A DNA stretch of 64,000 bases from Dromaius novaehollandiae (taxonomy: Eukaryota; Chordata; Aves; Casuariiformes; Dromaiidae): contig NC_088102.1 in assembly GCF_036370855.1 (NCBI RefSeq), positions 17,961,001-18,025,000 of the forward strand, read 5' to 3'. The position numbers and the translations under genes were made by a program. Below the pieces are notes generated by a model. The model saw only the letters and a program-made list of their open reading frames with translations, had not been told where the DNA came from and ran no database searches. This document shows, one piece after another, positions 27,911-28,595 of the stretch; the first letter of the stretch is position 1; every line of letters begins with the position of its first letter.

Positions 27911-28595
27911 CTCCAAAGAGGGACTTACTGATTTAGACATTACAGAAGAATCTGTCTTTGTTGCAGTTGTAGATACAATTTCATTTCTATGTCATAAGGC
28001 GTATCATTTTCCGTTGGTAGCTCAAACACACACCTAAGTTTTGAATGCATGAGTTCTTCTGGTTTTGCCTCTTTCCATACTGCTTCCATATCTGAAGTAT
28101 CAGCTGGAGCAAGCATAGACTTTCTCTTTTTCTTTTTTCTTTTTTTTCTTTTTTCTTCTTTTCTTTTTTTTTTAAACCATAAACTTGTGCTTACTTTTCT
28201 CATTAGGATCATAGTCAAAAGGCTGTAGCATCACAGAAACATTAATTGATGTTCCTGCATTGATAATTGCACTGTTAGGTCTTACACAGTATCTACGTGG
28301 TGCTGTGGTCTTAACTTTGAAGCACACATTTCTGTCTGTAGGATTGCCGAGCTTCAGGTTTGTGGTGACAACATCTGTGAAAGGCTCTTTGAATCTGAGC
28401 TCGTGCTGCGGTTCCAGGCTGAGGCCTGCTCCGCTTTCACCGTGTTCCTCCTCCTCCTGCTGCTCGGCGATGGCGGCACCAGGTGCAGGCGGCACCGGGT
28501 GGAGAGAGGAAGGGCCGGGCGGGAGGGGAAGGCAGGCAGGAAGGAAAGGAGGGAGGGAAGAAGGAAGGTGGGGGGCGTGCCCGGCCGGTGTAGTC
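27911..28595 (-). pseudogene. VAPB: VAPB mRNA segment captured inside the provirus
   Basis: Read on the minus strand, this is spliced VAPB sequence: a GC-rich 5' UTR (about 28595-28444), then codon 1 at 28443-28441 changed to ACG. The coding part gives [65 protein letters not shown] and, past an insertion, [18 protein letters not shown] and [11 protein letters not shown]. It ends near [20 protein letters not shown] (about 27913). VAPB is an ER tail-anchored protein whose N-terminal MSP domain binds FFAT motifs at membrane contact sites. The [13 protein letters not shown] core that binds FFAT is retained; the coiled coil and membrane anchor are missing. Defects are the lost start codon, a one-base deletion near codon 8, a stop plus a 54-bp purine insertion after HKFMV, and a two-base deletion near 27980. 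Lack of introns shows an RNA origin. VAPA is less likely, since GNPTDRN and SINVSVM are VAPB-like. Confidence 0.9.
28121..28174 (-). repeat. Polypurine insertion (A-rich with G) inside the VAPB segment
   Basis: On the minus strand a stretch of about 54 bases made only of A and G (apart from its first T) separates HKFMV from [13 protein letters not shown], which are adjacent in VAPB. Its first codon creates a TAA stop. It may be a slippage expansion during reverse transcription or a splice-junction remnant. Confidence 0.8.

Follow-up and report, generated by a model that had tools for sequence, protein, structure and literature searches.

The window, the whole 64,000-nucleotide stretch of Dromaius novaehollandiae DNA that was analysed, contained a mosaic LTR element on the minus strand. 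In element sense, it was composed of a 5′ LTR, a PBS, the N-terminal part of gag, a segment of the host gene VAPB, a piece of another retrovirus (virus B), a broken pol with an integrase core, a polypurine tract, and a 3′ LTR. The two LTRs (5′ LTR, TGTAGGGG...CCGCCACA, 29372–29609; 3′ LTR, 25711–25948) were direct repeats of 238 nt each with TGTA/CACA ends, and were 99% identical, with four differences in 241 aligned positions (K80 0.017). The flanks read on both sides formed a target duplication matching at five of six bases (ACACAC/ACTCAC in element sense). The PBS of virus A, TGGCGCCCGAACAGGGAC (29352–29369), which we take to be of the tRNA-Lys type, was located two bases inside the 5′ LTR, and the polypurine tract (25949–25964) adjoined the 3′ LTR. 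The near-identical LTRs, PBS, and polypurine tract named in the first-pass annotation were all seen at these positions.

The N-terminal gag of virus A formed an open frame in the window (28640–29306) and matched the gag of a VAPB-less relative, L116, by tblastn (E = 1.1e-25). The L116 gag matched PF02337 Gag_p10 (E = 6.5e-15), and the window's own gag matched no Pfam family and no solved structure. The traits bearing on a class II (betaretrovirus-like) placement of virus A were PF02337 in L116 but not in the window gag, the presumed Lys-type PBS, and the 6-bp duplication. The remaining pol of virus A (25965–27126) lay in broken frames down to the polypurine tract and retained an integrase core (PF00665 rve, E = 4.1e-17, within 26618–27010). 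The piece of virus B (27127–27911) comprised R-U5, a PBS, presumably of the tRNA-Arg type, and a leader, and had no match in the 11 long-type loci (described below) that were compared. Rfam and tRNA scans across the window found nothing.

The parental VAPB gene was located in the same assembly through the C-terminal part of VAPB that the window lacks. It lies on contig C16, where six exons encoding a 243-residue protein were read between 16026274 and 16058700. The captured VAPB of the window (27912–28621) matched, exon by exon, C16:16026274–16056053, and contained 163 nt of 5′UTR, exons 1–4, and part of exon 5 in order, contiguous and without introns, ending at C16:16056053, CDS nt 485 (~162 codons). 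The two sequences were 95.0% identical over 480 CDS nt. The copy contained the MSP domain (PF00635, E = 1.4e-27), and its closest solved structures were VAPB (9.2e-50) and then VAPA (1.2e-41). The copy is marked by two deletions, one of 4 nt and one of 1 nt at codon 6; its start codon ATG has been lost and reads ACG, and exon 3 contains an A-rich insertion of 52 nt at CDS nt 270 (28122–28174, limits approximate). Both VAPB junctions were ambiguous by ~10–13 nt owing to microhomology. The identity, the provirus sense (minus strand, 28621–27912), and the intronless state proposed earlier all held when aligned to this gene and both breakpoints were located; the proposed extent, 5′UTR through about 150 codons, was corrected to ~162 codons.

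When 39 copies, 29 of a short type and 10 of a long type, were aligned to the spliced parental mRNA, their identity to the parental CDS was 93.3–96.7% across the part that each covers (209 nt in L054, which covers only the later part; 461–484 nt in the others). No intron was found at the VAPB exon junctions in any of the 39, and the window element and eight loci were also mapped exon by exon to the genome. Of the 39 copies, 38 had the A-rich insertion at CDS nt 270; the remaining one, L054, is truncated in that region, and the parental gene lacks the insertion. The insertion measured 24–80 nt across the 38 copies and varied in sequence, with A/G-rich and A/C-rich versions. It was rejected as an intron remnant because it sits inside exon 3. 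In a tree of 38 copies, all copies formed one clade against the parent. A single capture is indicated, since the copies have both the A-rich scar and the 5′ junction in common.

In the long type, found at 12 loci (10 of them read as loci), VAPB extended to ~C16:16058313 in exon 6 and joined RNase H through a perfect 10-nt microhomology, GCAGCTGCTG, which also occurs in VAPB exon 6. The same 10 nt were present in all 10 VAPB-less loci sampled from 18 remaining matches; none of these had VAPB beside the match, nine continued in pol, and L072 continued in unrelated sequence. The pol side of the junction in L055 matched PF00075 with E = 2.9e-4 and 21.5 bits, just under the cut-off of 25.8, and matched residues 531–610, the C-terminal part, of the PDB entry 'Polymerase' 7sr6 (E = 2.4e-7). 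Upstream of the join, two pieces of 100 residues from VAPB-less relatives had no Pfam match, RNase H included; one of them had a weak PDB POL match (E = 0.013). At the 5′ junction, gag and VAPB shared an imperfect ~10-nt match, GCCC.GGGCC, when compared with the VAPB-less relatives L116 and L118; it is imperfect because these relatives are only ~75% identical there. VAPB-less gag was reached through RNase H, which yielded L116 and L118, and L117 and L119 gave none. A gag 18-mer failed as a path to a VAPB-less ancestor, since 19 of the 20 matches read carried at least the VAPB 5′UTR and one was a chance match. The long type has neither protease nor RT, and the C-terminus of gag and part of RNase H are gone as well, which corrects the earlier statement that VAPB replaces gag capsid, protease, and RT.

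In the short type, to which the window element belongs, VAPB ended in exon 5 and was followed by the B piece (27911–27127) in place of the remaining VAPB. The join showed an 11-of-13-nt match between GTCCCTCTTCGGA and GTTCCTCTTTGGA in VAPB exon 5. The PBS word of B had 166 matches in the genome, and ten places with this word outside the known VAPB matches were read. Five of these (L123, L124, L125, L127, and L128) lacked VAPB and shared further upstream sequence, with L123 and L124 98.8% alike; this shared sequence behaves as the LTR of B would and is LTR-like. TATAATT was located 27 nt before RGGGTCCCTCTT in four of the five loci, and the fifth, L128, had TTGTAATT instead. The position of this TATA-like box predicts the cap site of B, and together with the join site it would place the VAPB/B junction at the predicted 5′ end of B's RNA. 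A role of B as a promoter within the element was unsupported, because sequence upstream of its predicted R is not included. The top B matches were also considered as independent B proviruses, and the 7 of 40 rows that were checked were all further VAPB elements. Among the other places read, L122, L126, and L129 were another mosaic, with pol joined to B's R ~25 nt in, and L120 and L121 contained the PBS word in differing context. The latter two were read from G000:C8:2457586-4440855, where twelve B PBS words with one common variant occurred among the matches listed.

The short type was the commoner form among the loci read, with 36 places (29 + 7; 33 once one of each Z/W pair is dropped) against 12 long-type loci. 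In the 38-copy tree, which covers the part of VAPB present in both types and leaves out L054, the short copies formed one clade among the long ones with a support of 0.752, and several nodes of the same tree were weakly supported. Every one of the 29 short copies, and 5 of the 10 long ones, had a 4-nt deletion at CDS 406. The nested clade and the distribution of this deletion suggest that the short type most likely derives from the long type. Some indels (CDS 17, CDS 332) disagreed with the copy tree, which probably reflects homoplasy or recombination between copies.

The abundance of the short type, together with the 166 matches of B's PBS word, would suit a history in which it outgrew the long type because the B leader served as a second packaging signal with its own PBS, so that the RNA was carried by either virus. 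However, B's PBS was the most variable piece outside CpG (0.066, 14 sites; short copies), whereas A's PBS was among the least variable (0.023, 14 sites) and B's leader was ordinary (0.039); constraint on B's PBS or leader was looked for among the short copies and not found. This contrast speaks against the use of B's PBS, and copy number may also reflect segmental duplication or timing, which leaves such an advantage unlikely. An equally doubtful proposal is that the window-type element is a natural dual-helper satellite, with A's ends and PBS, B's R-U5-PBS-leader in mid-genome, and an idle VAPB spacer, and so a parasite of both retroviruses whose RNA either of them could package. If so, it would have arisen when a strand transfer starting at the 5′ end of B's RNA was misdirected; the drift of B's PBS and the retention of A's make it the less likely.

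A third recombinant class joined the VAPB 5′UTR to the RT domain (L093–L098 and L110–L115). Of 33 gag matches with no listed VAPB match nearby, 20 were read: 12 were still in VAPB where the piece read ended, and six (L093–L098) contained the VAPB 5′UTR only, to nt 142, followed by RT. The 5′UTR joined RT after nt 122 in L110, and L100 was a chance match. The RT identity was tested on one locus of the class (PF00078, E = 4.4e-18). The existence of this class indicates that VAPB-bearing RNA recombined more than once.

These structures are best accounted for, with a probability of roughly 0.88, by microhomology-guided template switching on co-packaged RNAs, comprising a capture, a second recombination, and spread in trans, with VAPB as a passenger. 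A class II (betaretrovirus-like) virus A would have packaged spliced VAPB mRNA beside its own RNA. During minus-strand synthesis, RT would have left the pol template in RNase H and entered VAPB exon 6 through GCAGCTGCTG, copied the mRNA back into its 5′UTR, and re-entered gag at the GC-rich match GCCC.GGGCC, giving the long type, which may then have spread with proteins supplied in trans. Later, long-type RNA would have been co-packaged with RNA of retrovirus B. Synthesis may have passed from the integrase region of A into the leader of B and run on across its PBS and U5 until close to the 5′ end of its RNA, and a jump from there to VAPB exon 5 via the 11-of-13-nt match would have produced the short type. 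The mechanism given in the first-pass annotation, retrovirus-borne capture by template switching, was supported by the intron loss, the sense orientation, the replaced viral sequence, the microhomologies of ~10–13 nt, and target duplications that were exact or matched at five of six bases in 13 of 15 elements. A second recombination, which brought in B's R-U5-PBS-leader, has to be added to it, and the first capture product was longer, reaching exon 6.

The intronless VAPB and its A-rich stretch might also be expected if a CR1/LINE-type processed pseudogene of VAPB had landed in an existing provirus and then been copied. However, the A-rich stretch sits inside exon 3 and not at the 3′ end, the 3′ part of VAPB is absent and the 5′UTR present, which is the reverse of LINE 5′ truncation, and VAPB meets viral sequence at microhomologies with the intervening viral genes gone. 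A complete 3′ end with poly(A), the mark of a LINE pseudogene, was not found, and VAPB ran into RNase H or B instead. This origin is very improbable. The features found were those of an LTR-mediated retrocopy, namely joined exons with the parental gene elsewhere, an LTR, PBS, and polypurine tract, junction microhomology, and target duplication.

The variants among the VAPB copies comprised 166 nonsynonymous and 61 synonymous changes, compared with 165.7 and 60.4 expected under the observed mutation spectrum. The spectrum-corrected omega was 0.99, and the changes were distributed as 74/79/74 over the codon positions. Changes common to at least 80% of the copies stood at 3 nonsynonymous to 4 synonymous. 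By codon 29, 28 of the 39 copies had reached a stop. A working captured ORF, as in an acute transforming retrovirus, was thus not indicated by these values, and purifying selection on the captured ORF, as in crocodilian ERVs, was not found among the copies. VAPB therefore appears to be an idle passenger drifting without coding constraint, with no function indicated by its sequence. The earlier comparison with oncogene-like transduction holds for the origin and not for a virus-used protein, since VAPB drifts. In the gag N-terminus (window 28640–29306), 213 nonsynonymous and 115 synonymous changes were counted against 232.3 and 95.7 expected, with an excess at third codon positions (98/99/131), and 21 of 25 copies were stop-free in the window's columns with indels set aside, so that the real frames may be broken. 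These counts give a modest hint of constraint on the gag N-terminus.

That the element was kept because the captured VAPB, with its MSP domain, was made as a viral protein, for example a dominant-negative contact-site factor, has several observations in its favour. The ATG was kept in 35 of the 39 copies, and the longest reads were open for 163 (L013), 166 (L029), and 208 codons (L060). Variability outside CpG was somewhat lower in the VAPB CDS (0.029) than in gag (0.035) and integrase (0.046), which counts against drift. The pooled copies gave an omega of 0.51 against the parent without spectrum correction; since the parental branch, itself constrained, contributes to this value, it is not taken to show that the copies are constrained. 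In crocodilian ERVs, captured KIT-ligand and nectin3 ORFs are reported to be under purifying selection (PMC4299795). However, the corrected omega, the even codon positions, and the early stops stand against a viral protein, as does the insertion within the MSP domain in 38 of the 39 copies. For the copies examined this explanation is refuted, and VAPB as a passenger of template switching is retained.

A 25-mer across the VAPB exon 3/4 junction had 112 matches in the genome and a control had none. Of these, 100 were listed: 77 were dispersed and the other 23 made up a tandem array on C2. The remaining 12 were unlisted. In a genome search, the best 40 of 157 candidates corresponded to 40 loci in 42 rows with 83–100% identity. 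Thirty of these loci were extracted, and 29 contained the B piece at least partly, the exception being L014, of the long type. The search for further LTR-bounded copies that had been suggested earlier thus revealed a multi-copy family in the same genome, and the window element is not a one-off event, nor is it an error of assembly. The number of insertions is smaller than that of matches, because the Z/W pairs L012/L015, L023/L024, and L027/L028 were each taken as a single insertion present on both homologues, and on C33 some copies, such as L055/L056, resemble segmental duplicates. Both LTRs were readable in 15 elements (14 of 20 fetched, and the window element), with K80 values of 0.017–0.059 (median 0.034). 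Bird substitution rates are 1.5–2.5e-9 per site per year, and the ages of the 15 elements are then very roughly 3–20 million years. Six-base target duplications were exact in nine of the 15, matched at five of six bases in four, and were absent in two (L007 and L016, only two of six). Nothing was seen that favours an assembly chimera, which has an extremely small chance of being correct, given the 112 exon-junction matches against none in the control and the recurrence of the structure with separate flanks and target duplications.

The tandem array on C2 (G000:C2:168475765-168589312; L089, L090) contained the 23 listed matches with a period of mostly ~4.5 kb, and the one unit read consisted of a deleted short-type element and ~2.7 kb of other sequence. 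Very similar pieces of VAPB elements (L101–L104, L107, and L109) were located ~19–35 kb from contig ends, at C5:77903391, C6:23195, C8:27766, C10:30370968, C48:21856, and C182:34744, as would be seen if subtelomeric duplications had carried them.

Of the 77 dispersed listed matches, 35 were on C33, and 32 of these were in its first 15.5 Mb. This region is 1.06% of the assembly and contained 39 times the expected matches, with the 15.5-Mb limit set after the matches were seen and duplicates still counted. HINT1 is Z-linked in birds. Three HINT1 exons matched C33 and C35 at one offset of 13.68 Mb, with a second match pair at 13.79 Mb. From this collinearity, C33 and C35 resemble W and Z chromosomes that have a long part in common, an arrangement that explains why three insertions appear twice. 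The excess of VAPB elements on C33 is therefore a probable excess on the W chromosome.

LTR-mediated retroposition was reportedly described by Tan et al. in 2016 (Genome Res). In acute transforming retroviruses, host RNA is joined to viral RNA and viral genes are lost. Unlike in those viruses, the VAPB cargo shows no apparent sign of expression or selection, the elements form a germline family, and no oncogene is involved. Host-gene capture by ERVs is known. LTR-mediated retroposition by template switching, chicken included, likewise places a spliced host mRNA in an LTR element at microhomologies (PMC5408686), whereas the VAPB chimera itself multiplied into a family and underwent a further recombination with another retrovirus. 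A W-linked DYNLRB1 retrogene is described in parrots (PMC8854603). Crocodilian ERVs also captured host mRNAs and exist in several copies (PMC4299795), whereas VAPB is unselected among copies, partial, and in a gutted element with the leader of a second virus. Maize Bs1 is likewise an LTR element with host gene segments, but it belongs to a plant and has segments from three genes (PMC13317346); the VAPB element combines a single host gene with sequence from two or more retroviruses. In nonhomologous retroviral recombination, or patch repair, co-packaged host RNA is joined at fortuitous microhomology (PMC4997597). The same is proposed for the VAPB element, whose mosaics differ in that they are inherited and that one of their junctions lies where the 5′ end of an RNA is predicted. 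No earlier report of VAPB in an ERV was recognised in a limited literature search. Within that search, three things appear to be new: the gene captured, the multiplication of an idle capture into a non-autonomous family, and the preserved second-round mosaic with the leader of another virus.

A single genome still contains the intermediates: the parental gene, relatives of the capturing virus without VAPB, the first capture product, the second-round recombinant, and the 5′UTR-only/RT class. Three microhomology junctions are readable, so that the rules of template switching become testable on natural events. The family is also a caution for retrocopy surveys. According to its methods, one large survey drops candidates overlapping repeats by 40% or more (PMC13320880), and multi-copy captures like VAPB could be filtered out by such a step. 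Furthermore, the excess on the probable W chromosome ties the VAPB family to the idea of the W chromosome as an ERV refugium (PMC8310711).
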